Below, in pieces: positions 5,315 through 33,412 of a stretch of DNA of 64,000 nucleotides. A program made the translations under genes and the position numbers. This DNA comes from an uncultured Clostridia bacterium. GTDB lineage: Bacteria; Bacillota; Clostridia; Lutisporales; Lutisporaceae. The notes beneath the pieces are model-generated. The model was not told where the DNA came from. It saw nothing but the letters and a program-made list of their open reading frames with translations, and ran no database searches. The stretch is from contig CALGKJ010000123.1 in the NCBI GenBank assembly GCA_937930535.1, positions 1 to 64,000 on the forward strand. Direction: 5' to 3'. Position 1 is the stretch's first letter. Every line of letters starts with the position of its first letter.

Positions 5315-5360
5315 GTTTTTGACCTCTTTTTTGCTTATTTTTCACCTAATTTTTTACAGT

Positions 5361-5518: not shown

Positions 5519-5590
5519 TTATACACAAATTATTAACAGCTTGTCAACAAGTTATTCACAACAATTATTAGTAGAGTTAATATATTTTTT

Positions 5591-6165: not shown

Positions 6166-6289
6166 CCGTTGTCCTCCTCATTTTATCTAAAATAAAAAGC
6201 ACCTACCGTTTTTTTAACAGCAGATGCCTTAAAGTATATTTTTCTATGATACTATTCTAACACATGTGTTAGTAACAAAGGTAACAACT

Positions 6290-6709
6290 TTAAATTTTGC
6301 TTAAAAATCTATTTGCCATCATCTGAATACCCTTTTCTGTATTCCCACCGCCTATACTTACAGCTACCTGATTCCAACTCAATCCATTTATATATCTTAG
6401 CGATAAAATCATCCTCATTTGACTGTCCTCAATACCTTCCACAAATCTATATAATCTTTTAAGCTCATAAAAGCACTTTTTTAGACTTACTTCTAGCATC
6501 TCCTTAAGCTCCGCAAGCTCAACAGCATATTTGCCGGTTTTATCTGTTATTCCTGAAGCATGAGGCAGTCCTGTTATTCTTCCTGTAGTGGAAGCAGCAA
6601 TGCATTCCAGTTCTTCAATCCTCTTTTTTAGTAGCTCTATTTCCCGATTTAGATAATACAACTGTGATAATTCTTGCTTAGTCATAAGGTGACACCTCCA
6701 AGCTCTCAA
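6290..6709 (-). CDS. DUF1492/ArpU-like phage late regulator
   Basis: coiled N-terminus, then MRMILSLRYINGLSWNQVAVSIGG (sigma-region-4-like HTH). Confidence 0.7.
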   Translation of the reverse strand: MRAWRCHLMTKQELSQLYYLNREIELLKKRIEELECIAASTTGRITGLPHASGITDKTGKYAVELAELKEMLEVSLKKCFYELKRLYRFVEGIEDSQMRMILSLRYINGLSWNQVAVSIGGGNTEKGIQMMANRFLSKI

Positions 6710-6974
6710 GTATTGACTTTACTTCTTCTAAGCTTGTAACTTTGAAGGCTTTACCCTTTGCTTCTTTGATTCTTTGTATCGTTATTTCTTGTAACTTTGT
6801 AAGCATGCCTTTTTCAGTCTTAACCTCAAAGGCAAGGAACCTGCCATTAATACATGCAATAATATCAGGGATTCCTGATGTACTGTACATACCGCCATGC
6901 TGTTTCCAAGCAAAGCATTGGGGTACAGTCTTTAAATATTTTATTATTCTGTTTACTATATCTTTTTCTGCCAT
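6678..6974 (-). CDS. VRR-NUC domain nuclease
   Basis: FAWKQHGGMYSTSGIPDIIACINGRFLAFEVKTEKGMLTKLQ: canonical VRR-NUC. Confidence 0.92.
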   Translation of the reverse strand: MAEKDIVNRIIKYLKTVPQCFAWKQHGGMYSTSGIPDIIACINGRFLAFEVKTEKGMLTKLQEITIQRIKEAKGKAFKVTSLEEVKSILESLEVSPYD

Positions 6975-6986
6975 AATTACCTCACT

Positions 6987-7288
6987 TTTGACGGAATTAC
7001 GGAATTGACGAGTACATATATTATCTTTATTTTTATTACTCTTTTTTTGTACTTCTACTACTTATATATATTTTGGGGTTCTATATAAAGAAATAGAGAA
7101 AGCTGTCAATTCCGTCAAGTCGTCAAATTCTTAGAAATATTTGCTTATTTTTTGACGGAATTACGGAATTGACAAGTACATATATTATCTTTTTTTTATT
7201 ACTCTTTTTTTGCATTTCTACTATATATACATATTTGGCTTCTATGTAAAGAAATAGAGAAAGCCGTCAATTCCGTCAAGTCGTCAAA
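6987..7288. repeat. tandem pair of about 140-bp units, each bounded by 23-bp inverted repeats; candidate replication origin
   Basis: TTTGACGGAATTACGGAATTGAC at 6987-7009 and 7151-7173; GTCAATTCCGTCAAGTCGTCAAA at 7104-7126 and 7266-7288; AT-rich interiors. Confidence 0.8.
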
Positions 7289-9788: not shown

Positions 9789-10209
9789 TTCCCTTCACCT
9801 CCTCACATCGTTCATTGAAGTATCTTATATGGATGTTCCGCTTTTTAGCCTTTTCAAGCTCTGTTTGCATATCCTTTGTAATTCTTGAACCAAAGCACCA
9901 TACCTCATTGCATTTATGCATCAGTATCATACTCATAAAAATTGCATTGCTTCTCTGTACTGAATCCTTGTGATCCATAAACTGAGAAAATAACAGTTGT
10001 GGTGCTATGGGTATGGCGTTTTTAGATACTGCAAAGCGTGAATAGCCTTTTGCCCTATTTATGTTAAAGTCTCTATCACCTGTAAAGGGTGAGCAGATAT
10101 AAATTAGTGGCTTGAATTTTGATTTCTTTTCTTCTTTTGTTATTGCTAGAAGTGCTTCATAAGCTGTGGGGTCATGATAGCCTTCTATGTTGTATTTATT
10201 TATACTCAT
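9781..10209 (-). CDS. DUF4406/nucleoside 2-deoxyribosyltransferase-like
   Basis: PLIYICSPFTGDRDFNINRAKGYSRFAVSKNAIPIAPQLLFSQFM. Confidence 0.75.
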   Translation of the reverse strand: MSINKYNIEGYHDPTAYEALLAITKEEKKSKFKPLIYICSPFTGDRDFNINRAKGYSRFAVSKNAIPIAPQLLFSQFMDHKDSVQRSNAIFMSMILMHKCNEVWCFGSRITKDMQTELEKAKKRNIHIRYFNERCEEVKGNA

Positions 10210-10223
10210 TTGTTCGTCCTCCG

Positions 10224-11018
10224 TTAAGCTGTTATTGATTCTTTTTCTATTATTGGTAAAATACCCTTCTTGTTTTTTAGTAAATCATATATAAATAATC
10301 TCCCCTTTTGCGTCCAATAGGTATTTATAGTACTTATATCTGCATCTACTATATGGGTTCTTGACTGAGTATACCCTTGAGCCGAGTAGGCTTGATAAAG
10401 CAGCCATGTTTTTCCCATTTTAAATTGAACACCAAGCTCGTGAAGAAGTTTGTTTAATGCTTTTCCTGACATCCCATAATCCTTAGCAATTTTACTGATT
10501 GGCATAGTGCTTTTATTTTGTAATATTAAATCATAGTAAGATGCTTTTGGCTTAAGCTCGCCTATAATCTGCTTGTTTTTAGCATTTTCAATTTCTAACT
10601 GCTTTCTCTTTTCTTTTTCAGCCTTTAACTGTGTAAAAAGCTTAATTCCATAATCAGGATTTGAAAGCATTTCATCAATTACCTTGTCTGTTGCATATAT
10701 ACCATGTTTTCTTATAGTTGGTAATACTTCATCAAAGACCCATCTTTCAAATTTCTCTGCTGAAGGCATTTTGGATTTTACAATCAAGCGAAACAAGTCT
10801 CCTTCAGAAATAAATTTCTTTTTCTGTTCACCGCCCGCTGAAGGGGTGAGGATTTCGCTCACCCCTTTGCAATGCGTTCGTATAGCTTCATGGGGATTAC
10901 TATATCCAAGCATTCTTGCACACTCTGCTGCTGGAAACAGCTCTTTTCCATCAACAACTAGAATCTCTATTTGCCCGAATTCTGTATTTTTAAATATTTG
11001 CAAATTATTTATACTCAT
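10224..11018 (-). CDS. phage antirepressor (Bro-N plus KilAC)
   Basis: IEILVVDGKELFPAAECARMLGYSNPHEAIRTHCKG (Bro-N) and a C-terminal antirepressor/KilAC-like region. Confidence 0.92.
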   Translation of the reverse strand: MSINNLQIFKNTEFGQIEILVVDGKELFPAAECARMLGYSNPHEAIRTHCKGVSEILTPSAGGEQKKKFISEGDLFRLIVKSKMPSAEKFERWVFDEVLPTIRKHGIYATDKVIDEMLSNPDYGIKLFTQLKAEKEKRKQLEIENAKNKQIIGELKPKASYYDLILQNKSTMPISKIAKDYGMSGKALNKLLHELGVQFKMGKTWLLYQAYSAQGYTQSRTHIVDADISTINTYWTQKGRLFIYDLLKNKKGILPIIEKESITA

Positions 11019-11057
11019 TTGTTCGTCCTCCGATTTTACTGTATATATTTCTGTAAA

Positions 11058-12986
11058 TTATTCTATATTCAATTCCTTCATAGTTCCGAAGCTCTGACCT
11101 ATAGAAGCTTCCGCTACTATTGGTACATCAAAGTCTTTAAATGGTTGTGTTTCCATGCACAGCTTTATATAATCAACAGCTTCTTCTACCTTGTCCTTCG
11201 GTACTTCAAAGACCAGCTCATCATGTATTTGAAGCAGTGGCTTCAACCAGTTTCTTTCTAAAAGTCCTGTGAGAATCCTAGCTATAGCAAGCTTTAGAAT
11301 ATCTGCTGCTGTTCCTTGAATAGGGGTGTTTAATGCACACCTTTGAGCAAAGCTCTTCTTTCCCCAATCATAGGAATTAATATCTGTCAAATATCTACGT
11401 CTTCCAAGGTAGGTTTCTGTATATTTTAAAAGCTCCGCTCTTTTTTTAACCTCTTCCTGCCACTTAGAAAGCCTTGGATAACCTGACTTTAAATTTGATA
11501 TTATCTTCTCGCATTCTGAAAGGGAGGTGTCTAATCCTGCCTTGAATTTTAGGGTTTTCTGCAAGCCCTTTGGAAACAGACCGAAGAATGTACCGAAATT
11601 GCAGTTTTTAGCAATAGTCCTTCGTTCCTTATAGTGCTCTGCATTTTTATCTACCGCTTGTTCAAAGGATATTCTGTATATAACACTGGTTGTTTGAGCG
11701 TGAATGTCACCGCCTGTACCATAAGTTTCAAGCATTGTGTTATCACGGCAATAGAAGGCTCCTACTCTAAGCTCTATTTGGGAAAAGTCCAATGATAACA
11801 GTACCTTGTCATATGGTGCAGTTATGAAGTCTCTGACACCTATAACGTCACCATCAGGTCTCGGCATGTTTTGCAGATTTGGCTTTCGGCTTACGAATCG
11901 TCCTGTTTCAGTTCCTAAAGGAAAAAGGTCTGGATGTATTCTGCCTGTTGCACTATTGATATGCTCAAGGTAGCCATCAATGTAGGTGGATTTTATCTTA
12001 CCCCATTTGCGGTACTCTTGAATAAGTTCAAATATCGAAGTAAGCTCATAACAGTTTTCTCTGCACCAATCTGTTAGTAATATCATTGCTTCATCATCCA
12101 CTGCGGCTTGATTTTTATCTGTTGTTTTTAGTACAGGTAATCCTAAGTCCTTATATAAATAGTTTTTGAAGGCGGCGGTAGATGCATTTGCTCCTATATC
12201 CACATCACCGATATGGAATGTTATATCATCCTTTAATTGCGATAGTTTTTGTCCAGCTTCCTTTTGCTTTGAGAGCATCAGTTCCTTATCCACTAACAAA
12301 CCGTTATGCTTCATAATTCCTACATACACCGATGTTGGTGATTCTATCTGTTCAACAATATAGCGGTGCTTAGGCATGAATTTATCGAACCAATTATTAA
12401 AGGTATGATACAGCCTTAAAGTGTAATCCGAATCGGCACATGCATAGCATATTGTTTCGCAATCCTGTGGGTCAAGCTCATCAAAATGTCTGCCTTTTGT
12501 TACTTCCTCAAACTTTGTCATTTCTATATCATACAGCTCAGGAACTAAGGTCTTAAGTCCGCTGTCTGACAGATTTCTGAATTCAGTATTGCTTTTTAAG
12601 GTCAACTGGCTTGCAGCAATGGTGTCATAACAAGGAGCTTGTACTACTATTCCCAAGTGATACAGAAACATAGCTTCAAAGCTTAAATTGTGTGCAATTT
12701 TAACTACGTTCTCATTTTCAAAAACCCATGCTTTTAGGTAATCAATTATTTGTTGAGGGTTCTCTGTATTTATGCCGACTTTATGATTAAGTGGTACATA
12801 TATGGCACTACCCTCTTCTACCGAAAAGCTTATTCCTACTATAACCGCCTTATGTGGGTCTAGTGCCACTTTAGTTTCATTTCTATATTTATCTATAGGT
12901 GCTGTTTCTATATCAAAGGCTATAACCTTACTGCCTTTGATGTATTTTTGCAAATCCTTTATGTTTGTTATACATTTATAACTCAT
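11058..12986 (-). CDS. phage DNA polymerase I-family (3'-5' exonuclease plus polA)
   Basis: VIAFDIETAPID (exo), LLSLDFSQIELRVGAFY (motif A), RRTIAKNCNFGTFFG, LLQIHDELVFEVP (motif C). Confidence 0.97.
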   Translation of the reverse strand: MSYKCITNIKDLQKYIKGSKVIAFDIETAPIDKYRNETKVALDPHKAVIVGISFSVEEGSAIYVPLNHKVGINTENPQQIIDYLKAWVFENENVVKIAHNLSFEAMFLYHLGIVVQAPCYDTIAASQLTLKSNTEFRNLSDSGLKTLVPELYDIEMTKFEEVTKGRHFDELDPQDCETICYACADSDYTLRLYHTFNNWFDKFMPKHRYIVEQIESPTSVYVGIMKHNGLLVDKELMLSKQKEAGQKLSQLKDDITFHIGDVDIGANASTAAFKNYLYKDLGLPVLKTTDKNQAAVDDEAMILLTDWCRENCYELTSIFELIQEYRKWGKIKSTYIDGYLEHINSATGRIHPDLFPLGTETGRFVSRKPNLQNMPRPDGDVIGVRDFITAPYDKVLLSLDFSQIELRVGAFYCRDNTMLETYGTGGDIHAQTTSVIYRISFEQAVDKNAEHYKERRTIAKNCNFGTFFGLFPKGLQKTLKFKAGLDTSLSECEKIISNLKSGYPRLSKWQEEVKKRAELLKYTETYLGRRRYLTDINSYDWGKKSFAQRCALNTPIQGTAADILKLAIARILTGLLERNWLKPLLQIHDELVFEVPKDKVEEAVDYIKLCMETQPFKDFDVPIVAEASIGQSFGTMKELNIE

Positions 12987-13051
12987 TAGCTTGTCCTTTC
13001 TGCTGCAAGCAGGGAACAGGCTTAAAACCTGTCCCCGATTAAAGCATCCTT

Positions 13052-13792
13052 TTACTTAAGGGGTTCTGCCTCATCAGCATATGTCATGGATAGTTCATCT
13101 ACTTCTGCATCTGATTCAAAGCCTATGTTTTCGCTATATGCTTTTACCTGCTCAGACAGTTTGTTTATTAGTATGAATTCCGCTTCTGTAAGAGTTCTGT
13201 CAATTGTAAACTGAGCTTGTGAATAAGGTATGCCTCCAGAGTTAACCACTTTTTTAAGTGAGAATTTTGTAACTACTGAATTTGACTTTCTTCCTCTTGA
13301 CAACAGACGCTTGATATATCTTGAAAATTCCTTCAAGGAGCCTGTTGGAAGTGAAAGCAGTAATGGGAATATTTCTCCTTCTCTTAATACATAGATTCTT
13401 CTTCTTTTTTTACATGCTTTAGAGCCGTTTTCTCCGCTGCCGAAGTGGTTATATGGACACTTATCACAGCTTCCTCCGGGATTGCCTTTGCCGATTAAGC
13501 CGTCAAAGCTGCTGCAATCAGGAGGATTGCTGCCGCCTGTGTACTTTTGATTGTAATATGCCTGTAAGGTATGGTGGTACAATATAACCGCTGTAAACTC
13601 TTTTACTGCATCAGGCTCGTTGGGGTCATCCCCAGGTATTTCAAATACGGTGCTTCCTGCTGATGGAATTTTGATTCTTTCAAAATCACCATCTAATCCG
13701 TTCAACTCTTCATGTATTGCATCCGACATATTAAATTGTGCCAAATTCTCAAAGCCTTTATTTTTTATTGTTAAGTCATTATTTTTACTCAT
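13052..13792 (-). CDS. conserved phage protein, possibly ssDNA-binding
   Basis: 246 aa, Cys motif CDKCPYNHFGSGENGSKACKKRRRIYVL; position between polymerase and helicase genes. Confidence 0.5.
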   Translation of the reverse strand: MSKNNDLTIKNKGFENLAQFNMSDAIHEELNGLDGDFERIKIPSAGSTVFEIPGDDPNEPDAVKEFTAVILYHHTLQAYYNQKYTGGSNPPDCSSFDGLIGKGNPGGSCDKCPYNHFGSGENGSKACKKRRRIYVLREGEIFPLLLSLPTGSLKEFSRYIKRLLSRGRKSNSVVTKFSLKKVVNSGGIPYSQAQFTIDRTLTEAEFILINKLSEQVKAYSENIGFESDAEVDELSMTYADEAEPLK

Positions 13793-13969
13793 TACATTTC
13801 CTCCAATTTTTCATTTAATTTATCAAAGTATCTTTTTCCCTTGCTCTTTGTATCCTTGAATCTATGTAAATTTGAGCTTATTTCCTAATTCATTGTTCCT
13901 TGTGCTTTATTCTTTATTCTTTGCTCTTAATTCCTTATTCTTCGCTCTTTGTTCCTTGCATCAGAGAAG

Positions 13970-14431
13970 CTATTTGGAAGCTTTTCTGACCCCGACTGAG
14001 GTCTTTTCAAAGACATTAACCAGTCCTGATAGCCAATCGGGTAATAAATCGTTGTTTTCAGATATCTGCTCTCTTACAAATGCTGCTAGACTATTGGCAT
14101 TAACTGTTTCAGTAACTAACGAACTAAATCCATTTGTTTTAAGTGCACTAAATAGCTCTTGCTTTTGATCAGCCTTAGCCGATGCGTAGGTCTTTGTGTT
14201 TAGATAAAATAGAATACCGCTTCTATTGAAGCTTTGTGTTTCAGTATCAATCATCATTTCTGACAGCTTGTATTCAGTTTCTTCAATGTCTAAATTGATT
14301 GTCTTAAGCTTGTCCTCGGTTGCTTTTTTGTTGTCTCGTAATTTCTTCAGCTTTTCTGCTAAATTAAACATCTCATTTTTCATCTGTTTCACCTCCCTTC
14401 GGTGAATGGTTACTTGATTACATTTTTCCAA
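13970..14431 (-). CDS. phage protein with coiled-coil N-terminus
   Basis: 153 aa, NLAEKLKKLRDNKKATEDKLKTINLDIEETEYKLSEMM; in the early operon. Confidence 0.5.
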   Translation of the reverse strand: MEKCNQVTIHRREVKQMKNEMFNLAEKLKKLRDNKKATEDKLKTINLDIEETEYKLSEMMIDTETQSFNRSGILFYLNTKTYASAKADQKQELFSALKTNGFSSLVTETVNANSLAAFVREQISENNDLLPDWLSGLVNVFEKTSVGVRKASK

Positions 14432-15750
14432 TTATCAATAATGGATTTGGCTATGTCCTCCTTTCTTCCTAGAGCTTCCATTACTGTTTCATCTATAGTT
14501 CCTTTTGCTACAAGATGAATGTATAGACATATGTTTCTTTGTCCTATTCTGTGGATTCTTGCCTTTGCTTGTATATAGTCTGCATAGTTGTATGATAAGC
14601 TGTAGAATACACAGGTACTTGCAGCAGTTAAGGTTATTCCCATTGAGGTTGTTTGGATTTGTCCTACAAATACCATACAGTCCTCGTCATTTTGGAATTT
14701 TTCTATTTCCTCAGCTCTATCCTTAACCTCGCCGCATATCATTGCATATTTGATTTTCTTCTTTTCCAGCAGCTTGCATATCTCTTTAATCTCAGGAATG
14801 AACCTAGCCATTATTACAAGCTTTTGTCCAATCTCAATGTGGCAGTCCACTATATCCTCAAGTGCTTCAAGCTTTGCCTTTGATATCTGCTCATAGCGTT
14901 CTGCTTCTTCATCCGGTCTTATAAAACCGCCTGTTATCTGCTGAAGTCTTAATATTCTCGTTAGTATGTTGGTAGCAATGACATCTCCCTTAGAAAGCTC
15001 CATGTAACTGTCCTTAACGAACTGCTTGTACAGCTTCATTGCTCTACTTTCAAGAGTTATATAGTGTGTTTTATTTATTGTATCAGGTAAATCAAGTGCT
15101 TCATCCTTTGTTACTCTGTATGCTATGGAATGAGCCTTTTCAATCAGTTCCTGCATGTTCTTATATCCTATTGGCTGATTGTAGTCTCCCAGTACTGCAT
15201 AATAGTTTTTAAAGGCATAGAAGGAAGCTCCGAATATGCTTTCATCAAGCATTTTGTATTGACTATATAAATCTAGTGGATTTTGAGTTATAGGTGAGCC
15301 GGTTAGAATCATTCTGAATTTGCATTGCTTAGATATTTTATGAATAGATTTACTGGACTTGGCGTTTGGATTTTTGATTCTTGTACTTTCATCCGCTACT
15401 ATAAAGTCTGGCTTCCACTGCATTATATCTGCCTCCAGCAGTGGAACACTATCATAATTTACTACTGCAATCTGCAGTCCATGATTTCTTATTTTGCTTA
15501 ACTGCTGTTTTTTCTTTTCACGGCTTCCTATTAAAACCTCTAGGGTATACGTAAAATCAGCAAACCTTGAAAATTCCTCTTCCCACACACTAACAATTGA
15601 TTTTGGTGCGATAACTAACAGCTTATTAATATGTCCATTAACATATGCTCTTCCTGTAATAGCTACAGTAGTGATACTCTTGCCGCATCCCATTTCCATT
15701 AAAAGTGCGTATCCTTTATCCATAAAGTTCACCTGCCTTGAATATTCCAA
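14410..15750 (-). CDS. SNF2-family DEAD/DEAH helicase, main part
   Basis: ALLMEMGCGKSITTVAI (Walker A), FIVADESTRIKN (DExx), GITLTAASTCVFYSLSYNYADYIQAKARIHRIGQ (motifs V/VI). Confidence 0.93.
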   Translation of the reverse strand: MEYSRQVNFMDKGYALLMEMGCGKSITTVAITGRAYVNGHINKLLVIAPKSIVSVWEEEFSRFADFTYTLEVLIGSREKKKQQLSKIRNHGLQIAVVNYDSVPLLEADIMQWKPDFIVADESTRIKNPNAKSSKSIHKISKQCKFRMILTGSPITQNPLDLYSQYKMLDESIFGASFYAFKNYYAVLGDYNQPIGYKNMQELIEKAHSIAYRVTKDEALDLPDTINKTHYITLESRAMKLYKQFVKDSYMELSKGDVIATNILTRILRLQQITGGFIRPDEEAERYEQISKAKLEALEDIVDCHIEIGQKLVIMARFIPEIKEICKLLEKKKIKYAMICGEVKDRAEEIEKFQNDEDCMVFVGQIQTTSMGITLTAASTCVFYSLSYNYADYIQAKARIHRIGQRNICLYIHLVAKGTIDETVMEALGRKEDIAKSIIDNWKNVIK

Positions 15751-16063
15751 GTGTCATACAGGCTCTGTTGTATGCTTCTATTTGATGGGAATATGGTACA
15801 GCCTTTATTGGCATTGGCTCTATTGGTATTGTCACCTCACTGTTTGTTCTGTTTGAAACTTGTATCTCTTTTAGTTTTTCTAAAAGCTCATCATCAAATT
15901 TACAGCCAAGCATATGTAAGAGCATCAAATTTTCTTTGTTGTATGGGACTATCCATACCTTGCTGTCAGCATCCCATATTCTATCAGGGATTTTTTTAAT
16001 AGCCGCTTTATGAACAAAGCTGTCATAGATTAAGATTGTATTGTTCGAGAATTTTGCTTGCAT
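15716..16063 (-). CDS. N-terminal part of the SNF2-family helicase, split by frame
   Basis: ends ...VPYSHQIEAYNRACMTLGIFKAGELYG*, the pre-Walker-A part of such helicases; continuation is in the adjacent frame. Confidence 0.65.
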   Translation of the reverse strand: MQAKFSNNTILIYDSFVHKAAIKKIPDRIWDADSKVWIVPYNKENLMLLHMLGCKFDDELLEKLKEIQVSNRTNSEVTIPIEPMPIKAVPYSHQIEAYNRACMTLGIFKAGELYG

Positions 16064-16325
16064 TTTTCCTTCTCCTGCTTTTTCGAATATTTTTGTTCAT
16101 TTCACATATGTCCTGCAAATTTTGTTCGTCACCTTGGTAAAAAAATAGCTTGTCTACAGTTGTACCGAAGAAATCTGCAATTTTCTTGGCTAGTGCAAAT
16201 CCCGGTGTTTTTCTGTTGTTTTCAATCATGTTTATGTAGTCCTTGCTTGTTCCTATTTCTTCTGCAAGCTCCTGCTGGGATAAGCCCTTTGACATCCTGT
16301 AGTATAAGAATAATTTATTCTTCAT
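16023..16325 (-). CDS. XRE-family regulator (Cro-like)
   Basis: YYRMSKGLSQQELAEEIGTSKDYINMIENNRKTPGFALAKKIADFF. Confidence 0.9.
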   Translation of the reverse strand: MKNKLFLYYRMSKGLSQQELAEEIGTSKDYINMIENNRKTPGFALAKKIADFFGTTVDKLFFYQGDEQNLQDICEMNKNIRKSRRRKNASKILEQYNLNL

Positions 16326-16414
16326 TTCTCAGCCCTCCTTTTCGTTCGTTGTTTTACATTATATCGAATACTTTTACATTTGTAAATAGGTAATTTGAAT
16401 ATTTTTTTCCTAGG

Positions 16415-16443
16415 TTGACATTAGTCGAACAATTTGTTATTAT
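16415..16443 (+). promoter_or_regulatory. sigma-A type promoter for the CI-like repressor
   Basis: TTGACA (16415-16420), 17-nt spacer, TATTAT (16438-16443); TCGAAYA-like half-sites in the divergent intergenic region. Confidence 0.75.
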
Positions 16444-16472
16444 ATTTGATATAGAAAGGTGAGGTGTATCTA

Positions 16473-16877
16473 ATGCTATTTGGTGACAGAGTAAAACAAC
16501 TTAGGCAGAATGCCAACATGACACAAGCTGAATTAGGTAAATTAATTGGTGTTTCAGATAGAGTTCTTGGTTATTATGAGTCTAATGAGAGATTCCCTAG
16601 AAAACAAGATGTTATTGCAAAATTATCTGAGATATTCAATGTATCCGTTGACTATCTTATTGGAACTGACGGTTCTTTTACAGAGGATGCGACTAATGAA
16701 TACGGACATATAGGGCATAAGCAAGCTCAGGGTGTGTTGAAAAATATAGAGATGCTTTTTGCCGGCGGCGAGCTTATAGAAGATGATAAGGATGAGGTGT
16801 TTAGGATAGTTTCTGAGCTTTACTTTGATGCTAAGAAAAAAAATAAAGAGAAGTACGGTAAGAAGAAACAAGAATAG
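16473..16877 (+). CDS. XRE-family repressor (CI-like)
   Basis: RVKQLRQNANMTQAELGKLIGVSDRVLGYYESNERFP; ATG 16473 preceded by AAAGGTGAGG (track start is GTG at 16464). Confidence 0.92.
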   Translation: MLFGDRVKQLRQNANMTQAELGKLIGVSDRVLGYYESNERFPRKQDVIAKLSEIFNVSVDYLIGTDGSFTEDATNEYGHIGHKQAQGVLKNIEMLFAGGELIEDDKDEVFRIVSELYFDAKKKNKEKYGKKKQE

Positions 16878-16921
16878 TAGTTATTGTTTTTATTATCCGC
16901 ACTTGTAAGGAGTGTGGGAAA

Positions 16922-17437
16922 ATGAACTGTTCAAAGATTTATAAATGTGCTGATAAACTAATAAAAACATTCGAGACAAGAGACCCATTTAAAATCGCAA
17001 AACACATAGGAATTGATTTAAAATATATGAAGCTTAGAAATATTAAAGGCTTATATACCTATATCCTTAGAAACAGATATATTGTTATTAATGACAGTAT
17101 TGACGAAATAAGTGCCAGAATCGTTTGTGCTCACGAAATCGGTCACGACCGCTTCCATAGAGGTCTTGGAATTAAGACATTTCAAGATGAGATGTGTATT
17201 CCTGTAAAGACTGCAAATCCTGAAATAGAGGCAAATTACTTTGCTGCCGAGTTTCTCATTTCAGATGCTGACCTTTTAGATTTACTGAATAAAGATTATA
17301 CATACAGCCAAATTGCCTCAGAGCTTGAAGTGCATACAGAGCTTGCTGTCATAAAGGCACAAATACTGAATAGTAAAGGACATAAACTGTCCATTCCCTA
17401 TATCCCAGCGGCTAACTTTTTGGGTAAGATAGGGTAA
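16922..17437 (+). CDS. ImmA/IrrE-family metallopeptidase
   Basis: VCAHEIGHDRFHRG (HExxH) and NYFAAEFLISDADLL. Confidence 0.95.
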   Translation: MNCSKIYKCADKLIKTFETRDPFKIAKHIGIDLKYMKLRNIKGLYTYILRNRYIVINDSIDEISARIVCAHEIGHDRFHRGLGIKTFQDEMCIPVKTANPEIEANYFAAEFLISDADLLDLLNKDYTYSQIASELEVHTELAVIKAQILNSKGHKLSIPYIPAANFLGKIG

Positions 17438-17523: not shown

Positions 17524-18399
17524 CTAACTGCTTCTTTCGTTTAATTCTTTTAATGTTACTCCATCCTCATTCTTCCACATTATTGGACCACTGGTTCTGT
17601 TACCTAGAATAAAGTCTGAAGCTGCTGATGGACTTGTAAATAAAATTTCTTGGGTAAACACATTATCAATAATTGTGCCATCTGATAAATATTGTTCACG
17701 AAGTTTAATGATATTCTTGCCAAGTGAGTTAACAGATAGCTGTTCTCTTATTACACTGCCTCTACATACCACAAAGCCTTCTGAGCTTTGAAATCCTTTT
17801 GCTGATAAACCATTTCTGTTTTTAATATATAGGTACTCTACTATATCTTCCCTTTCACCTGCATCTGTTTGTTCCATGCTATCTGGCATCAACAGCTCAA
17901 ATACCTTATGTCCTAATGCTGCTACAATAATTTTAGCATTATCAATAAATTCTTCCATCTCAGCAACTTCCGCTTCTGATATTACAGATTTCTTTGGTGA
18001 CTGACTATTCATAACAATATACCGATTCACTTCATTTGCTATTTCATAAAATCTGCTTTCTAGATATTTTATATGTGCTTTATTAAGATGATCGTCCTTA
18101 TTAATAAATACTACAGCTTCAGTCCAATAATCTTTATTGGCGTTTTGTATATGCTCCCCTAATCGATTTATTGCATCTTCTGTTTCTCCTATATATACAA
18201 CAGGTCTTCCGCTATCGCTATCATGCCCAAAAAGAAAGTAGACTGATGGTGCACGCAGCTCTTCTCGGTTCAAGCATTGCTTGTAATATGTTCTAGGTAT
18301 TTTATATGCCTTGCCTGTCCAATTGGAAAGCTCGCATATCCATCTACCGTTTGGAATACCGTCCATCATAAATATTTTTACACTTTTTCCTCGTCTCAT
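17524..18399 (-). CDS. GIY-YIG nuclease domain plus DUF4357-like C-terminus
   Basis: PSVYFLFGHDSDSGRPVVYIGETEDAINRLGEH (GIY-YIG) and C-terminal SAASDFILGNRTSGPIMWKNEDGVTLKEL (DUF4357-like). Confidence 0.85.
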   Translation of the reverse strand: MRRGKSVKIFMMDGIPNGRWICELSNWTGKAYKIPRTYYKQCLNREELRAPSVYFLFGHDSDSGRPVVYIGETEDAINRLGEHIQNANKDYWTEAVVFINKDDHLNKAHIKYLESRFYEIANEVNRYIVMNSQSPKKSVISEAEVAEMEEFIDNAKIIVAALGHKVFELLMPDSMEQTDAGEREDIVEYLYIKNRNGLSAKGFQSSEGFVVCRGSVIREQLSVNSLGKNIIKLREQYLSDGTIIDNVFTQEILFTSPSAASDFILGNRTSGPIMWKNEDGVTLKELNERSS

Positions 18400-18999: not shown

Positions 19000-20058
19000 T
19001 TAATCTTCATTATCATCTTTTAAAATTACTTCTGCTATAGCTTTCCCTAATAAAGGCGGAACTGCGTTCCCAACCTGCTTCATCTGAGATGATTTTGGAC
19101 CATATAATATGAAATCATCTGGGAAAGACTGCAGTCGAGCAGCTTCTCTTACCGTAATACATCTATTCAGATGGTAATGTGTAAATCTTCCTGAAGAAGG
19201 TGTATCAAATCTTGTAGTAATTGTTACAGTAGGTTCTTCAGCAACAATTCTAGACCAGGTTCCACTATATATGGATTTCGTTAACATTTCAGGTGGTAAA
19301 ACCTCTTTCCCCATACCAACAGGGATTAATTTTAGTTTCTCAATGGCTTCTTTTGAGTGCTTAGTAGAAACATGATTATAAAGCTTAACTGAGTTTTTTC
19401 TCATCATTTTCTGATAATTACTTAATGGTTCTATTCTATATTCTTGAACTTCCTCTCCTTCACCAGATGCGAGATACTCCAAATCACTTATAGCATCATA
19501 AGCAGTAGTTTTTATACCGTTGCCTTTTGGCAGTTCTGGTGGAGCGGCATTATGCTTTCCTAAAATAAATGCTCTTCTTCTATACTGAGGTACTCCAAAA
19601 TCAGCAGCATTTAAAACATTATAGGTTATTTGATATCCATTTTTATTAAAAATATTTTCTATTTCCTTTATAAACAGCCCATTTTCCGTAGTTATAAGAT
19701 TGGGTACATTTTCCATAAGGAAGTACTTGGGTCTTAAGTATTCAACAACCTTAAAATAATATCTGAAAAGAAAGTTTCTTTCATCATTAATTGTTTTTCT
19801 TGATCCCTTTTGTGAGAAACCTTGGCATGGCGGTCCACCTATTACAACGTCAATTTTGCTTCTATATTCTTTAAAAATTGTATCAACATCTAACTTTGTA
19901 ATATCTTCATTAATCATTCTAGTATCTTTATGATTTTTAGAATAAGCATGTGCAATATCAGTATCTATTTCATTAGCTACAGTTACATTGTAATTGGCTT
20001 CTTGAAACCCGTATGAGAGTCCACCTACTCCTGCAAATAAATCAACAATTTTCAACAT
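19000..20058 (-). CDS. C5-cytosine DNA methyltransferase
   Basis: VDLFAGVGGLSYGF, GGPPCQGFSQKGSR, FLMENVPN, QYRRRAFILG, ARLQSFPDDF...QVGNAVPPLL. Confidence 0.98.
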   Translation of the reverse strand: MLKIVDLFAGVGGLSYGFQEANYNVTVANEIDTDIAHAYSKNHKDTRMINEDITKLDVDTIFKEYRSKIDVVIGGPPCQGFSQKGSRKTINDERNFLFRYYFKVVEYLRPKYFLMENVPNLITTENGLFIKEIENIFNKNGYQITYNVLNAADFGVPQYRRRAFILGKHNAAPPELPKGNGIKTTAYDAISDLEYLASGEGEEVQEYRIEPLSNYQKMMRKNSVKLYNHVSTKHSKEAIEKLKLIPVGMGKEVLPPEMLTKSIYSGTWSRIVAEEPTVTITTRFDTPSSGRFTHYHLNRCITVREAARLQSFPDDFILYGPKSSQMKQVGNAVPPLLGKAIAEVILKDDNED

Positions 20059-20070
20059 AACAAACTCTCC

Positions 20071-20835
20071 CTACGCACCATTGATTACCTTCAGCTCATA
20101 TTTTTGACTTGTATGAACATCAGCGATTCTTTTAAGAGCTACATCAAAATAATCTTCTTGTAGTTCGATTCCAATAAAACTTCTTCCACATCTCTTTGAA
20201 ACAACCCCGGTAGTTCCACTACCCATAAATGGATCCATAACAACCTGACCTGGATTTGATAGTAATTCTATAAAATGTTGAATTACACTCTCAGGTTTCT
20301 GGGTTGGATGTCCACCGTACCTCTTTTCACTTTTTGGCGTAAGAGAACTCTCAATGAAATCATGAATGGCTAACGAATTGTTGTTAAAGGTTCCTGTTCT
20401 AGCCTGATTTACAAAGTACACCCATCCCTCCACTGAGTTAATAAAATGTAAATTCATGTTTCTAGGCATTGGATTAGTCTTATGCCATATTCCTGTTGTT
20501 TTATAATAAAACTTATTTTTTTCAGCAAGTCCGATAATTGTCTCTATTTTGATTAACGACATGAACATTATCATCGAACCGCCCTTTTTCAGAATCCTCT
20601 GTGATTCTTTTAAAAAACTATCCATGTGCTCAGTCCACTCTTCAAACTCCAGATCATCCCATCCTGCGTCTCCAAAAAAATTCTCTCTCATTTTTTTTAA
20701 ATTAGTATCACGATCACGCATAAAATTCCCAAGATTATATGGTGGGTCTGTTACTATCAAGTCAACACTATCATCTTTTAGGTTCTTCATCGTATCTATG
20801 CAATTTCCTTTAATTAACATCATATTGCTTTCCAT
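20071..20835 (-). CDS. beta-class amino-DNA methyltransferase (N6A or N4C)
   Basis: VDLIVTDPPYNLG (motif IV) precedes VMDPFMGSGTTGVV (motif I); GGHPTQKP. Confidence 0.95.
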   Translation of the reverse strand: MESNMMLIKGNCIDTMKNLKDDSVDLIVTDPPYNLGNFMRDRDTNLKKMRENFFGDAGWDDLEFEEWTEHMDSFLKESQRILKKGGSMIMFMSLIKIETIIGLAEKNKFYYKTTGIWHKTNPMPRNMNLHFINSVEGWVYFVNQARTGTFNNNSLAIHDFIESSLTPKSEKRYGGHPTQKPESVIQHFIELLSNPGQVVMDPFMGSGTTGVVSKRCGRSFIGIELQEDYFDVALKRIADVHTSQKYELKVINGA

Positions 20836-20850: not shown

Positions 20851-22083
20851 TTAGATTAATAAATCGAGTAAATGAGTTTTAAATAAAGTCTCGTCTTTTG
20901 CAATAGATAAGTCTACCGCTCGTATCTTTAATTCTTTATTGGTTGAAACATTATAAAATTTATAGTCTCCTACTACATAGTCAGTCTTTAATGTCTTTGG
21001 ATACATAAGGACTGCCACATCTACTTTCGGAATAGCAGAGACATATGCGTTCATCTGATATACATCGGACTCCTTAGCGAACGATTTTATAACCTTCCAT
21101 TTTGTATCAACAACCATATTAAACCCTTTACTAGTATTTATCAAGATGTCAGGTTGAAGCTTAACTTTCTTTTTTGTTCCTGTTTTATCTGAAATCAAAT
21201 AATTCTTTCCTTCTTGGTATAATATCTTGGTTCCAAATATTTTTTTATATGATTTATAAATAAATACTTCAAAAATCTTGTTCATGTCAAACAACATTGA
21301 AGAAATAGAATTGTTACCATTGCTTAAACTTACTGTATACCCTTCTAAAAACAAGTTGCTATATTCAACTAATTCCTTTATTCTTGAATTAACTCGGTTA
21401 ATCTGTATATTAATATTTTCAAGCTGGTGTTCAGTAATTTTATCAATCTCTTCAAAATATACTAAGGTAGTATTCAATCGCTTTATATTTGAAAAATCTC
21501 TACTAACTTTTTTCATCTCAATAATCGTATATTTTATAAGTCGATTTACATCATTATCCACATCAAGTTTTGAATACTTGCAAAAAAATCTTGTTGGATT
21601 CATTGCATTCTTATTTATATGCTTTGAAAAAACAATGCTACCCTTGACTGTTGATATGTTCTTGGTAACTTTGCGATAAGAATACAACAAACCTTCTCTA
21701 ATATAATGTTCAAGCTTTTCTAAGTAATTCGATATTAGTATTTCTATTAATCCATTCTTAGAAAAGTCAACCTTTGCATTCACATTTTTCTTAGTAGGTA
21801 TATTATGAGCAACCTTAAACATATACAGTAATGTTTCTTTAATTTCAGCATCACTATATAAATCAGATACTTTGGGCAGTATTTCTAGCGAGAGTCCTGG
21901 TAGGCTTATTATTCCCACCCATTGCTGTGGAATAATATATCTGTTACCCCATTTAAAAATGCCTTTATTATTGATGTCAATTACTCGTATAGCTTCTACA
22001 TCTGCTTTAGAAATCTGTTTTTTTGCAACATCCCTTTTATTGCCAACGTATATTTTTTCATGTTCTAAAACAGTTAATATCAT
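20851..22083 (-). CDS. mcrC: McrC-like restriction subunit (PD-(D/E)xK nuclease)
   Basis: WVGIISLPGLSLEILPKV; TVKGSIVF; nuclease core LQPDILI...NMVVDTKWK; 4-nt overlap with McrB. Confidence 0.92.
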   Translation of the reverse strand: MILTVLEHEKIYVGNKRDVAKKQISKADVEAIRVIDINNKGIFKWGNRYIIPQQWVGIISLPGLSLEILPKVSDLYSDAEIKETLLYMFKVAHNIPTKKNVNAKVDFSKNGLIEILISNYLEKLEHYIREGLLYSYRKVTKNISTVKGSIVFSKHINKNAMNPTRFFCKYSKLDVDNDVNRLIKYTIIEMKKVSRDFSNIKRLNTTLVYFEEIDKITEHQLENINIQINRVNSRIKELVEYSNLFLEGYTVSLSNGNNSISSMLFDMNKIFEVFIYKSYKKIFGTKILYQEGKNYLISDKTGTKKKVKLQPDILINTSKGFNMVVDTKWKVIKSFAKESDVYQMNAYVSAIPKVDVAVLMYPKTLKTDYVVGDYKFYNVSTNKELKIRAVDLSIAKDETLFKTHLLDLLI

Positions 22084-23348
22084 ACAACTACTCCATCGTA
22101 TATTTTTACGATAGCATTTTTATAAAATCCTTTGTTTATGTAATACACTTTTTTTGCTTCTATTGCATACTCGCCAACAAAAGTTAATAACTTATCTATC
22201 TCAAGTTCCTCATGACAGTAGATTGCATTACTAACTAATGTACCGGTATCATCTATATCATTTAATACCATTTGAATTTTTTGCAAGTCATCAAAGAAGT
22301 ACTCTTCTAAAAGAGGAATTATTTTCTTTGCTAATATCATTTTGACATCTTCCCAACCACTTACCCTCATAAAAAAAGCATGCCCGATTATGTAATTACT
22401 ATCAAGTAACAACTCAATTCTCTTATTAATAACTTTTAATAGTTTGATTACATCAACTCCATCTATGTTTTTCGCATCTAAACCTCTAACCCTGAGAGCC
22501 TTATTTAATTCTTCATAATCACATGGGAAATTAATAAAATCAAATCTTCTCCTTAGTGCAATATCTATAGTTGCTATAGATTTGTCAGCGGAGTTCATTG
22601 TGCCTATTACATTAAGATTATTAGGTACAATGAAAGTGGTTTTAGAATACGGCAACACCGCTTCTAATTCACAGAATTGTCCCTCTCGCTTATCCAATTC
22701 AATCAAACTAATTAACTCACCGAAAATTTCAGATATATTTCCTCTATTAATCTCATCAATGAATAAGGCATATTGCTTTGATGGATTTTTCCTGGCAGTT
22801 TCACATATTCTCTTAAATATACCATCTTGAGGGTCATAAATTATTGTCTTGGTTACAGGGTCAACAGATGGTCTTATTCCTTCAATGAAATCTTCATAAA
22901 CAAACGATTGATGAAAGGTAACAAAATCATACCTTTTCTCAATCTTAGCATTTTTCATATACTTGATCATAAAATCCGAATCATATTCCAATAACTTTAG
23001 TCGATCAACAAACCACTTCCCCGTAGATTCAAAGAAAATGCGAGGTAATTTTCTTGAAACGCCCATTGGTGATTCTTCAATAGAGTGTTCTTCTAACACA
23101 TCAGATGCTGTACCAGTGTACCCTAAACCTAAAGTCATTATTTTATTAACAATATCAGATGACGTCATTGGATTGTTATTCTGTAAAATAACTAATGCAA
23201 TAAGTAACCAATCATCAGATTTTAGAGTATATGCTGCGCGTATATCCTTATCATCAATTTTATAGTCCGTATATTTTTCTATTTGTTTTTGCATGAAATA
23301 TGTTTTGCCTGTTCCAGGAGGACCATAATATATTACATTCTCAGCCAT
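22080..23348 (-). CDS. mcrB: McrB-like AAA+ GTPase lacking an N-terminal DNA-binding domain
   Basis: MAENVIYYGPPGTGKTYF (Walker A at the extreme N-terminus), YALFIDEINRGNISEIFGELISLIE, NVIGTMNSADKSIATIDIALRRRFDF. Confidence 0.95.
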   Translation of the reverse strand: MAENVIYYGPPGTGKTYFMQKQIEKYTDYKIDDKDIRAAYTLKSDDWLLIALVILQNNNPMTSSDIVNKIMTLGLGYTGTASDVLEEHSIEESPMGVSRKLPRIFFESTGKWFVDRLKLLEYDSDFMIKYMKNAKIEKRYDFVTFHQSFVYEDFIEGIRPSVDPVTKTIIYDPQDGIFKRICETARKNPSKQYALFIDEINRGNISEIFGELISLIELDKREGQFCELEAVLPYSKTTFIVPNNLNVIGTMNSADKSIATIDIALRRRFDFINFPCDYEELNKALRVRGLDAKNIDGVDVIKLLKVINKRIELLLDSNYIIGHAFFMRVSGWEDVKMILAKKIIPLLEEYFFDDLQKIQMVLNDIDDTGTLVSNAIYCHEELEIDKLLTFVGEYAIEAKKVYYINKGFYKNAIVKIYDGVVV

Positions 23349-24111
23349 TGCATTTCCTTCTCTCTATAGTTTTTAATCCACTTAGTATACTGTCTTCATT
23401 TTTTACTTTATAGTAGGTTGCCATATTATAAGCGGCTGCAGCAACTTCAAACTTCTTTTTTGATATGAATCCTACTTTTTCAAGGTAGTTTTCACTTCCA
23501 GGAATTCTAAGCTGATCTTTTCTAGGAGTACCACCTTCCAATCTTTCTCTAGCTTCATTGTAATTATAAGATAGCCCGTAATTATCTACTACTTCACACA
23601 AAAACTTGCCTACTGTTTTATTTTCACAATCTAGAACAACATACCTTATCGATCCAGTATTTTTATTTTTATCAATTGATCCTCTTCCGTCAAACATACC
23701 AGCTATAAAGCATTTTTTAACTTCTTTTGTCGATGCAAATAGTGCACTTTTCACCTCTGGAACCATATCCTCTAATCTTTGTCCATCTTTACTCCGAAAG
23801 AAAGTTCCAAATCCCATTAAACGATTAAATTTCCCTGAATCCAGCCCATTAGTTCTTATAGTTGATGCCATCAACGTCTGATTTGATATTTTTGCAGCCA
23901 AGGCTTTAACATGTTGAAAATGCTCTTCTAATTCTGCATTTGTTAAATATCCATTGTTATGTCTGACTGGAGCAATCCAGTATTTGTTTCCTTTTACAAC
24001 AACACTTTCATTAGCAGCAAAAATCCCTCCTAAAAAATATGCACTTTCATTAATCAGATACTTCGTTCCCATCTCTAAATCAATGTTCAAAATTGGATAT
24101 ATACTAGTCAT
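23341..24111 (-). CDS. LAGLIDADG-like protein, first gene of the McrBC/MTase operon
   Basis: two LAGLIDADG-like helices (YFLGGIFAANESVVV and CFIAGMFDGRGSIDKN); RBS GGAGGTG; overlaps the McrB ORF by 8 nt. Confidence 0.8.
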   Translation of the reverse strand: MTSIYPILNIDLEMGTKYLINESAYFLGGIFAANESVVVKGNKYWIAPVRHNNGYLTNAELEEHFQHVKALAAKISNQTLMASTIRTNGLDSGKFNRLMGFGTFFRSKDGQRLEDMVPEVKSALFASTKEVKKCFIAGMFDGRGSIDKNKNTGSIRYVVLDCENKTVGKFLCEVVDNYGLSYNYNEARERLEGGTPRKDQLRIPGSENYLEKVGFISKKKFEVAAAAYNMATYYKVKNEDSILSGLKTIERRKCNG

Positions 24112-24550: not shown

Positions 24551-26377
24551 TTATATAAAATTAATAGCATATTTCTCTAACATAACTTCCTGATCATGTA
24601 ATAATATAAAATAATCTATGTTTTTCTTTAAAACCTTAAAGTCCTCTGCTGATAAATTTATTTTATAGGATTCGAGTACAGCTATTAAAGCTCGAAATAT
24701 ATAATCAATATAAAAACCATCAACAGTTTTATCTTTTAAATTGTTAATAGTCTGTTCTATTGCTGTAACAAGATTACATTTTGTCTTGTATTGTCTTAAA
24801 TTTAATTTTTCACATATATAATGAATGTCTACCTTTCCAGATTTATTTATGCACATTAAAATTGAGCTATATATCCCACAAAATGTCTCCTTATTAATAT
24901 AGTATCTATTTCTTGGATGATGATAATAAAATAATTGCAGCGCATTTGCAATTTCTAATAAATCTTTAATTGAGTTTACTTTTTTATCTTTTAAATATTC
25001 TATATATTTGAAATTACAATTTCTAATAAGATTATCTATCTCATGTCTCCTTTTATTTAGATTGTTAATTTTAGATTTTTTCCTCCCTAAAACTTTAGGG
25101 ATAAACTCATCAACTAGCCAATTATATGCAACTTGTGCATTCCAACTTTCTCTTTCATTGATTTTATTAAGATTCTCTTCTTGTAAGTCTTCAACTAGCT
25201 CCCATGTAATACAGATATCCCCTACTGCAGAATGTGGGTATAAAACTATATCTTCATCAAGTTCTGGATTAAAAAAAGCATGGAAACCAATATCATATTT
25301 ATTATGTTTTTTATTCGTATATACTTTTATATAAAATCTATTACTATCAAAAATATTCCATTCAGTATCTCCACTATCAACATCATGATTAAAAGCAAAA
25401 TCAACAAGTTTTAGCCATTGTACGGTCGTTAATGTTAAAAGTTTATAGTTATTTCTGCGTTTTGATAATGGATACTTATGTGTTTTTAATATATTCTCTA
25501 TATTCTTTATATGCTCTATATATTTATCTGCATAATCATCTATAACTTTACAGAATTTATGAATATCTTCAATGGACAACTTCAATTTATTATTACCCAA
25601 GTGAATATAACTATCTTCTAAATTAACAAATCTCTGGCTATTTGCTGAAGGTTGTTCAAATGTAATAAATCTTCTTGCACCATAGTTTGGATCCGTATGT
25701 AATCCAGAAAATAGCTCTGTTAAAATAGTCTTATTATCTAATAAAATCATACAATCTCTAACTTTTATTGTTCTAAAATATATTACACAGCTTGTTTCTG
25801 GATTATTGTATTTAGGTAATATAGCCTCTAAGCCAATTCTATTCACATACCTTTTATAAACCACTTCATTATCTAGCTCATATAATTTTTCAACTTCATC
25901 AAAGTCATTTTCTTCATTAGATATAAAACTAAAAATTCTTTCTACAATTCTTTGTCTTTTTTCTTTATCACGTTCTTCGTCTATATAAGATTTTAGCATA
26001 GAGCTATTTTTATCAAAATTCCTTAATCTTTTTAGCTTTTCTATTGCCTTTTCTATCAATGGAGCATTTTTTCTTGCTATTTCAAGAAAATATAATGTCG
26101 CAGCTAAACTAAATTCAGTATCGCTTTTTCGCCTATTCTCATTTTTACTTATAGACACAAGATTAAAAAGACTATCTAATTCAAAATTATCTTCAAGTCC
26201 ACAATCTTTAATAATTTTTTCAAACTTATCTTTTTTATTTTTATAAGACTTCGGTATTATATGATCAATCTCCATATCCTTAAATTCTAATAGATTGTCT
26301 GAATAACAACTCTTATGTTTATATACTTCCCATATGGCATATCTGACTAAGGGATTATTCTTATCAATTTTTTCCAT
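24551..26377 (-). CDS. large HNH-domain protein of unknown function, putative defence
   Basis: N-terminal HNH (RYAIWEVYKHKSCYSDNLLEFKDMEIDHIIPKSY...LDSLFNLVSISKNENRRKSD), about 520-aa C-terminus unrecognised. Confidence 0.75.
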   Translation of the reverse strand: MEKIDKNNPLVRYAIWEVYKHKSCYSDNLLEFKDMEIDHIIPKSYKNKKDKFEKIIKDCGLEDNFELDSLFNLVSISKNENRRKSDTEFSLAATLYFLEIARKNAPLIEKAIEKLKRLRNFDKNSSMLKSYIDEERDKEKRQRIVERIFSFISNEENDFDEVEKLYELDNEVVYKRYVNRIGLEAILPKYNNPETSCVIYFRTIKVRDCMILLDNKTILTELFSGLHTDPNYGARRFITFEQPSANSQRFVNLEDSYIHLGNNKLKLSIEDIHKFCKVIDDYADKYIEHIKNIENILKTHKYPLSKRRNNYKLLTLTTVQWLKLVDFAFNHDVDSGDTEWNIFDSNRFYIKVYTNKKHNKYDIGFHAFFNPELDEDIVLYPHSAVGDICITWELVEDLQEENLNKINERESWNAQVAYNWLVDEFIPKVLGRKKSKINNLNKRRHEIDNLIRNCNFKYIEYLKDKKVNSIKDLLEIANALQLFYYHHPRNRYYINKETFCGIYSSILMCINKSGKVDIHYICEKLNLRQYKTKCNLVTAIEQTINNLKDKTVDGFYIDYIFRALIAVLESYKINLSAEDFKVLKKNIDYFILLHDQEVMLEKYAINFI

Positions 26378-32029: not shown

Positions 32030-33412
32030 CTATCTGCGACGTATCGACGCAACTGTCTCCACATGCCCTGTATGCGCAAACATATCCACAGGCTGCACCT
32101 CCACAACCCTATACCCCTTCTCATCCAAATACTTCAAATCCCTAGCCAAGGTAGATGGATTGCAGGATACATACACTACTCGCTCCGGCTTCATATCTGC
32201 TATAACGTCCAGTAGTTCTACACCGCAGCCTTTGCGTGGTGGGTCTACCACTATTACGTCTGCCGTTAGCCCTTTCTTATACAAATCTGGTATAACCTTT
32301 TCTGATTCTCCTAATATAAACTCTACGTTATCTACGTTATTTATCTTAGCATTCTGCTTTGCATTTTCTATTGCCTGTCCTACTATTTCAACGCCGTATA
32401 CTTTTTTAGCCTTTTGGGTTAGGAATAATGATATGGTTCCTATGCCGCAGTATGCATCTATTACTGTTTCGTTGCCTGTAAGAGCTGCATATTCCAGTGC
32501 CTTACCATATAGCACCTCTGTTTGTATGGGGTTTACCTGAAAGAAGGATAGCGGTGATATCTTAAATTTGAATTCACCAATATAGTCTGTTATATAGTCC
32601 TCGCCATATATGACTACATTTTTTTCACCTAGTATTACATTAGTTTGCTTGGTATTTATATTTAATACTATACTTTTCAAGTTTTGTATCCTGCTTGTCA
32701 GCATTTCTATAAGCACTTTTTCGTTGGGCAGCTTATTGCCGTTTATGACTAGGCAAACCATAACATCTCCGGTTTTAAAGCCTTTTCTGGTCATTATGTG
32801 TCTTAATAGACCTTTTCCTGTGGATTCATTGTATACACTTAAGTTATATTTTTTTATAAACTGCTTTACTATACCTATTACTTCATCGTTTAGCTCATCC
32901 TGTATAATGCATTTGCTGGTGTCTACTATCTGATGTGTGCGATTGGCATAAAAGCCTATTATTACATCTTCATTCATACCGATTGGGAATTGTGCTTTGT
33001 TTCTGTATCTCCAAGGCTCTTTCATTCCTATTGTATTATGTATTTTTATATCTTTTAGTCCGCCTATTCTTTCTATAGCATCCTTTACTGATTGTGTTTT
33101 CATTTCAAGCTGTTGTTCATAGGAAAGGTGTTGAAGCTGACAGCCTCCGCATCTTTTTACTATTCCGCACTTGGGCTCTACCCTTGAGATTGATGGCTTT
33201 ATAATGTTTAAAAGCTTTCCGAATCCGTAGGTTTTATGTATTTTTACTATCCTTATTTCTGCTTGCTCCTGTGGCAAAGCTCCTTCTACAAACACGGTGA
33301 AGCCCTCTATTTTACCTACTCCCATGCCCTCACTGGTTAAGCCGGTAATATCAATTATGTAATCTTGGTTCTTTTCCACCGGAGTTTTTGCCTCCATAAT
33401 TTGTTTTTCCAT
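32030..33412 (-). CDS. rlmD: 23S rRNA (uracil-5-)-methyltransferase RlmD (RumA/TrmA family)
   Basis: TRAM domain plus CGGCQLQHLSYEQQL; VIDAYCGIGTISLFL; VDPPRKGC; YVSCNPSTLARD. Confidence 0.95.
   Translation of the reverse strand: MEKQIMEAKTPVEKNQDYIIDITGLTSEGMGVGKIEGFTVFVEGALPQEQAEIRIVKIHKTYGFGKLLNIIKPSISRVEPKCGIVKRCGGCQLQHLSYEQQLEMKTQSVKDAIERIGGLKDIKIHNTIGMKEPWRYRNKAQFPIGMNEDVIIGFYANRTHQIVDTSKCIIQDELNDEVIGIVKQFIKKYNLSVYNESTGKGLLRHIMTRKGFKTGDVMVCLVINGNKLPNEKVLIEMLTSRIQNLKSIVLNINTKQTNVILGEKNVVIYGEDYITDYIGEFKFKISPLSFFQVNPIQTEVLYGKALEYAALTGNETVIDAYCGIGTISLFLTQKAKKVYGVEIVGQAIENAKQNAKINNVDNVEFILGESEKVIPDLYKKGLTADVIVVDPPRKGCGVELLDVIADMKPERVVYVSCNPSTLARDLKYLDEKGYRVVEVQPVDMFAHTGHVETVASIRRR

Follow-up and report, generated by a model that had tools for sequence, protein, structure and literature searches.

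A LAGLIDADG-fold protein as the probable specificity subunit of an McrBC-derived restriction-modification system in an uncultured Clostridia bacterium

Analysis of the window, the whole 64,000-nt stretch of contig CALGKJ010000123.1 from an uncultured Clostridia bacterium, revealed an operon of five genes on the minus strand. The first gene (23341..24111) encodes a 256-aa protein with a two-repeat LAGLIDADG fold, recognized by Pfam (LAGLIDADG_3/Hom_end), AlphaFold2, and Foldseek, which is the predicted specificity (DNA-reading) subunit. It is followed by genes for a 422-aa McrB-type AAA+ NTPase without an N-terminal DNA-recognition domain (22080..23348; PF07728; PDB 6ut3 (McrB), E 8e-49; Foldseek matches to McrB structures) and an McrC-type subunit with the PD-(D/E)xK nuclease motif PD...DTK (20851..22083; PF10117, E 4e-65). 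The last two genes encode an N6-adenine/N4-cytosine DNA methyltransferase with a DPPY motif (20071..20835; PF01555, E 5e-43; PADLOC MTase_II, E 8e-61) and a C5-cytosine DNA methyltransferase (19000..20058; PF00145, E 4e-79; TIGR00675). The 8-nt overlap between the LAGLIDADG and McrB ORFs, both on the minus strand, had been described in an earlier note on this DNA and was confirmed by the coordinates. To that description we add the two downstream methyltransferases, an insert of approximately 100 residues in McrB, and the intact PD...DxK motif of McrC. Promoter-like sites across the operon were no more frequent than expected by chance.

The restriction operon adjoins prophage lysogeny genes. 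A prophage early region (4826-17437) contains genes for a phage DNA polymerase, primase, helicase, anti-repressor, VRR-type nuclease, HNH endonuclease, repressors, and an ImmA/IrrE-like peptidase. The gene immediately past that of the C5 methyltransferase encodes a GIY-YIG/DUF4357 protein (17524-18399), which matched the PADLOC candidate defence family PDC-S14 (E 5e-109). Upstream of the operon and in the same direction, a 608-aa protein (24551-26377) showed an N-terminal GmrSD_C/HNH domain just above the cut-off and is a possible further defence nuclease. The rlmD gene of the window (32030-33412) is located about 8 kb from the operon. In a viral contig carrying a copy of the operon (L003), that copy starts shortly past the 3' end of an rlmD-like 23S rRNA methyltransferase gene (positions 1-153), on the same side as in the window. 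The rlmD 3' end may thus be a shared integration hotspot; no integration-site repeat of 15 nt or more was found at the rlmD 3' end in the first 31.5 kb of the window. A small excisionase/MerR-like HTH gene, possibly the regulator of the operon, heads it in L003 (413-655) and in a Lachnospiraceae bacterium (L008, 5158-5352).

Repeat 2 of the 256-aa protein, taken by itself, narrowly exceeded the Pfam cut-offs (LAGLIDADG_3, 23.1 vs 22.5 bits; Hom_end, 22.0 vs 21.1 bits), and LAGLIDADG_3 was matched by five of the seven homologues at E<=0.1. Structure prediction was among the checks proposed in the earlier note, and the AlphaFold2 model, built from a seven-row alignment, showed two successive LAGLIDADG-type repeats (mean pLDDT 86.8, pTM 0.89), in each of which, as in the superfamily, the LAGLIDADG helix is followed by beta strands and helices. 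All 34 PDB matches returned by Foldseek at E<=0.001 were either WhiA or LAGLIDADG proteins (the PI-SceI and TliVMA inteins and I-DmoI). The lowest E value was 6e-6 with a probability of 1.00, and the TM-scores were moderate (0.37-0.50 on the query). The two-repeat LAGLIDADG fold is therefore well supported, and the relationship is distant. The protein is basic (pI 8.7-9.2), and Pfam gave no match to an HTH domain in it.

The two helix motifs quoted previously are present at residues 27-37 (LGGIFAANESV; 24001..24033, minus strand) and 136-146 (IAGMFDGRGSI; 23674..23706, minus strand). Alignment with LAGFVDGDGSI of I-CreI placed N34 of repeat 1 and R143 of repeat 2 at the metal-binding position, so that neither LAGLIDADG helix of the window protein ends in the catalytic acid that characterizes homing endonucleases. 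Among the six complete homologues, Arg occupied this position of repeat 2 in all six. In repeat 1, L007 had Glu, L008 had Asp, and the other four had Asn (N,N,N,E,D,N in the family alignment); E35, which adjoins the acid position of repeat 1, was invariant. Canonical double-strand cleavage by the LAGLIDADG family requires one acid per repeat, and as repeat 2 always carries Arg, such cleavage by this protein is unlikely judging from its sequence. The previously claimed loss of the catalytic acids thus stands for repeat 2, from which it is clear, whereas in repeat 1 two homologues have kept an acid. An active homing endonuclease was rejected on the Arg of repeat 2.

McrB begins MAENVIYYGPPGTGKT, with Walker A from residue 9, and its Walker A, Walker B, and NxxD motifs are intact. 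Upstream of its ATG there are five open codons, none of them a start, and the six related loci have 1-13. A cryptic N-terminus read from another start was therefore rejected, as the 1-13 open codons in the seven loci included no ATG, GTG, or TTG; with at most five open codons upstream in the window, there is no hidden N-terminal domain, which agrees with the earlier note in placing Walker A at the extreme N-terminus without a recognition domain. Between Walker A and the AAA+ core, McrB contains the insert (residues 31-137; 22938..23258, minus strand), for which the AlphaFold2 secondary structure predicted a helix-helix-hairpin (winged-helix-like) arrangement at modest confidence (pLDDT 74). 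The insert was present in all seven McrBs and absent from the Tg McrB alignment, and a Pfam search with it yielded no credible match. Homologues of the insert were detected in long-N-terminus McrBs of unrelated bacteria (L011, L013, and L014; E 1e-8 to 4e-6), so by sequence comparison the insert is not the replacement for the lost N-terminal domain; a role in DNA contact is possible.

Members of the LAGLIDADG family were reached by way of the adjacent McrB, a single viral contig, and a weak match in one genome. With the window protein as query, the viral contig (L003, 82% identity) and one contig-end fragment were recovered, and the contig bearing the fragment was identical in layout to a Romboutsia maritimum contig (L009). 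Scanning 84,980 species genomes by way of McrB added Herbinix (L006), an uncultured Clostridiales bacterium (L007), the Lachnospiraceae bacterium (L008), and Kurthia huakuii (L010). Direct searches for the LAGLIDADG protein in GTDB contigs, plasmids, and phages gave no matches. The same five genes were present in all seven loci (window counted), with both methyltransferases in each and the LAGLIDADG gene immediately upstream of McrB; in L009 the contig end cuts the LAGLIDADG gene, and the gap to McrB is about 350 nt. The methyltransferase genes come first in L007 and L008, yet the LAGLIDADG-McrB-McrC block is unbroken, which places the LAGLIDADG gene between the M and R genes. Since McrC has kept an intact PD...DxK motif in 7/7 loci, the system has another nuclease. 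The presence of the five genes, methyltransferase pair included, in all seven loci points to a McrBC-derived, modification-blocked restriction-modification system of the LlaI/BsuMI/LlaJI type rather than a methyl-dependent McrBC.

Co-occurrence with an N-terminally truncated McrB, as anticipated in the earlier note, was complete in the loci found. The seven LAGLIDADG-associated McrBs had Walker A at residues 8-12, and a LAGLIDADG gene stood beside the short McrB of the family in 7/7 loci and beside a long-N-terminus McrB in 0/31. In these 31 loci, with Walker A at residue 196 or later as counted from longest-ORF starts (some N-termini are possibly overestimated), neither phmmer nor the family profile detected a LAGLIDADG gene. 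Helicobacter marmotae (L026) was an exception, with Walker A at residue 16, no LAGLIDADG gene, and another methyltransferase gene just upstream; other exceptions were L035, where the ORF starts near a contig end, and L043, where the motif was not found. A LAGLIDADG domain fused to the N-terminus of the longer McrBs was also considered, and the family profile found none. Across 391 class-level and 399 phylum-level genomes, the family profile matched only in the window genome and a Romboutsia-type genome, the plasmid searches found no member, and in the samples searched a family gene was never found away from McrB. The family is therefore rare, and across everything searched it is tied to the short McrB. 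Since the seven loci are related, this co-occurrence is not phylogenetically independent and does not represent seven separate events. Two further McrBC loci were observed. In L007 (11671-14774), the LAGLIDADG system is immediately followed by a second McrB/McrC pair, which has a long N-terminus and a WYL-type regulator-like gene ahead of it. The window genome also has a second McrBC (contig C2, L056 709-4181), whose McrB measures 809 aa and which is not accompanied by a LAGLIDADG gene.

Several observations bear on DNA reading. The identities of the LAGLIDADG protein and of McrB across locus pairs were closely correlated (r 0.97). The predicted beta face (saddle and loops) of the LAGLIDADG protein showed a mean identity to three divergent members 0.17 higher than that of the outer helices, with 15 of 4000 permutations as extreme, and the strongest conserved part of the beta saddle was the basic stretch YNYNxARERLEGGxPRKxQLRI; conservation of the beta strands may be due to packing and not to DNA contact. 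Both methyltransferases were well conserved across the loci, which fits one shared target. Together, the divergence, conservation, and methyltransferase data are consistent with, and not proof of, site reading by the LAGLIDADG protein. In LlaJI, specificity is set by the McrB-like subunit R1 alone (PMC1459862), and a McrB without that part should therefore need a reader from elsewhere. WhiA, which has lost its metal-binding residues, binds DNA through an HTH, and its LAGLIDADG surface is altered (PMC3781837); the fold is therefore no guarantee of DNA reading.

On this evidence the LAGLIDADG protein is likely to be the specificity subunit. We give a probability of about two in three to the reading that it confers specificity in trans, without cutting, on a modification-blocked restriction-modification system that derives from McrBC and adjoins prophage genes. 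We lean only slightly towards the view that this domesticated and catalytically dead protein, acting in trans, is the sole sequence-specific reader of the McrBC-type motor; as far as we know, it would then be the first specificity subunit derived from a homing endonuclease in any restriction-modification system. In the proposed mechanism, the LAGLIDADG protein would use its beta-sheet saddle to bind a single unmethylated site, probably an asymmetric one, without cutting and would recruit the McrB ring to that site; McrB would then activate or translocate using a nucleotide (GTP by analogy), and McrC would cut. The host's copies of the same site would be protected by one methyltransferase per strand. 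The earlier note had proposed a separate McrBC specificity subunit that loads McrB and McrC, and the fold, the dead site, and the co-occurrence favour this proposal, in which both DNA recognition and loading are inferences. The proposal is modified in two respects, as the split design is not new and the presence of two methyltransferases in every locus means that the complex should act on unmethylated sites and not as a methylation-dependent McrBC. It is the methyltransferase pair that suggests restriction of unmethylated DNA at the methyltransferase site.

The main rival reading, which we consider unlikely, assigns DNA reading to the winged-helix-like insert of McrB and leaves the LAGLIDADG protein to act as an accessory clamp, an assembly factor, or an inhibitor. 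The presence of the insert, with its predicted helix-helix-hairpin, in all seven McrBs agrees with this reading, and Bell et al. 2024 (PMC11090510) considered that an insert in the GTPase domain of an McrB probably serves as a specificity domain. However, McrBs that have long N-termini and other partners also contain homologues of the insert, Pfam offers no credible match for it, and its conservation does not exceed that of the LAGLIDADG protein (identity to divergent members, 0.34 vs 0.39).

Genes for C proteins often sit just ahead of the R gene and overlap it, and the LAGLIDADG protein could likewise be a C protein- or WhiA-like transcriptional controller of the restriction genes. The position between the M and R genes in L007 and L008 would suit such a role, for which WhiA, a regulator with a dead LAGLIDADG domain, offers a precedent (PMC3781837). 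We nevertheless regard a controller as improbable, more so than a reading insert, given that the protein has no HTH domain match, that a small HTH gene is already present upstream of the operon in L003 and L008, and that McrB would be left without an N-terminal reader; the title of O'Sullivan 1995, as cited in PMC7680126, also attributes LlaI restriction to three genes. Least probable is that the protein actively cuts or nicks DNA, for instance as a homing endonuclease that hitch-hikes in the operon. The Foldseek result, the acid kept in repeat 1 of two members, and the invariant E35 are in its favour, whereas the metal ligand of repeat 2 is replaced by Arg throughout, McrC has its own nuclease site, and the place beside McrB has stayed fixed over large divergence, in contrast to what sporadic insertion would produce.

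If a non-cutting LAGLIDADG specificity subunit is the correct reading, the LAGLIDADG fold would join DUF3578, YTH, EVE, and B3 among the DNA readers of McrB motors, and a meganuclease fold would have turned into a recruiter for another nuclease. With the reader separate from the motor, site-specific loading of the McrB ring would become testable, and engineered LAGLIDADG scaffolds might offer a route to retarget a motor nuclease. In the open-access literature searched, no paper was found that links LAGLIDADG proteins to McrBC systems, and the term does not occur in PMC11090510.

Comparison with LAGLIDADG proteins revealed that the window protein shares the two-repeat fold of PI-SceI, I-DmoI, and I-CreI (Foldseek probability 1.00 to PI-SceI and I-DmoI), whereas its family lacks the repeat 2 catalytic acid and has no intron or intein context. 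WhiA (DUF199), which was among the Foldseek matches, is similar in being a non-nuclease bacterial protein with a degenerate LAGLIDADG fold. It differs as a chromosomal regulator with a C-terminal DNA-binding HTH, whereas the window gene is fixed in a restriction operon and its product has no HTH match; LAGLIDADG_WhiA remained below the cut-off for the window protein (15.0 vs 23.2 bits). The core-genome part of the window contains a WhiA-like gene (51190-52155) with GSG where the active motif has GDG, and its product is a non-catalytic LAGLIDADG protein by sequence.

The window system resembles E. coli McrBC (type IV) in its AAA+ McrB, its PD-(D/E)xK McrC, and the conserved motifs, but E. coli McrB carries an N-terminal methylcytosine reader and its system has no methyltransferases; with Walker A at residue 9 and two methyltransferases, the window system is not a methyl-dependent type IV McrBC. 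The McrBC relatives LlaI, BsuMI, and LlaJI cut unmethylated DNA, and a methyltransferase pair protects the host (PMC2614495); the window likewise has a McrB-like NTPase, a McrC-like PD-(D/E)xK subunit, and a methyltransferase pair. LlaJI (pNP40, with a Helicobacter pylori homologue) also combines a McrB/McrC-like restriction part with two methyltransferases and restricts unmethylated DNA (PMC1459862). However, LlaJI R1 has its own N-terminal DNA-binding (B3) domain (PMC7680126), in contrast to the separate LAGLIDADG protein predicted as the reader here, and the LlaJI methyltransferases are both C5, whereas one of the window pair is N6/N4.

The restriction cassettes of LlaI and BsuMI comprise three ORFs and encode McrB-like proteins of 337 and 343 aa (PMC1459862), and the window shares with them a short McrB-like protein, a three-gene restriction part, methyltransferases in the operon, and a separate third subunit encoded upstream. 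On Lactococcus plasmid pUCCL629C there is a locus of the LlaI type (L057), where a 252-aa upstream ORF that seems to be frameshifted accompanies genes for a LlaJI-family nuclease and for an AAA protein of 337 aa, whose Walker A lies near residue 9. The upstream ORF of LlaI (LlaIA) differs from the window subunit: it had no match in Pfam, it showed no similarity to the profile of the LAGLIDADG family, and hhalign with a single LlaIA sequence gave a probability of 0.2. PF09563 (RE_LlaJI), the family of the B. subtilis nuclease partner, which matched in the B. subtilis control, had no match in the window genome, where McrC belongs to PF10117; hence, at the sequence level, the window system has the same design as the LlaI/BsuMI/LlaJI class and a different nuclease lineage. 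A split system on a Nostoc plasmid (L064 2124-6234) comprises a 406-aa upstream protein with a weak NurA match, a short 381-aa McrB-like AAA protein, and a LlaJI-family nuclease. The idea that LlaIA or this Nostoc third subunit is a hidden LAGLIDADG homologue found no support. The split design is thus already established by LlaI, BsuMI, and the Nostoc system, with a third subunit that varies between systems. A short McrB with a separate subunit being known from LlaI and BsuMI, of whose third subunits LlaIA is the one compared by sequence, the new part of the window system is the LAGLIDADG fold of its third subunit.
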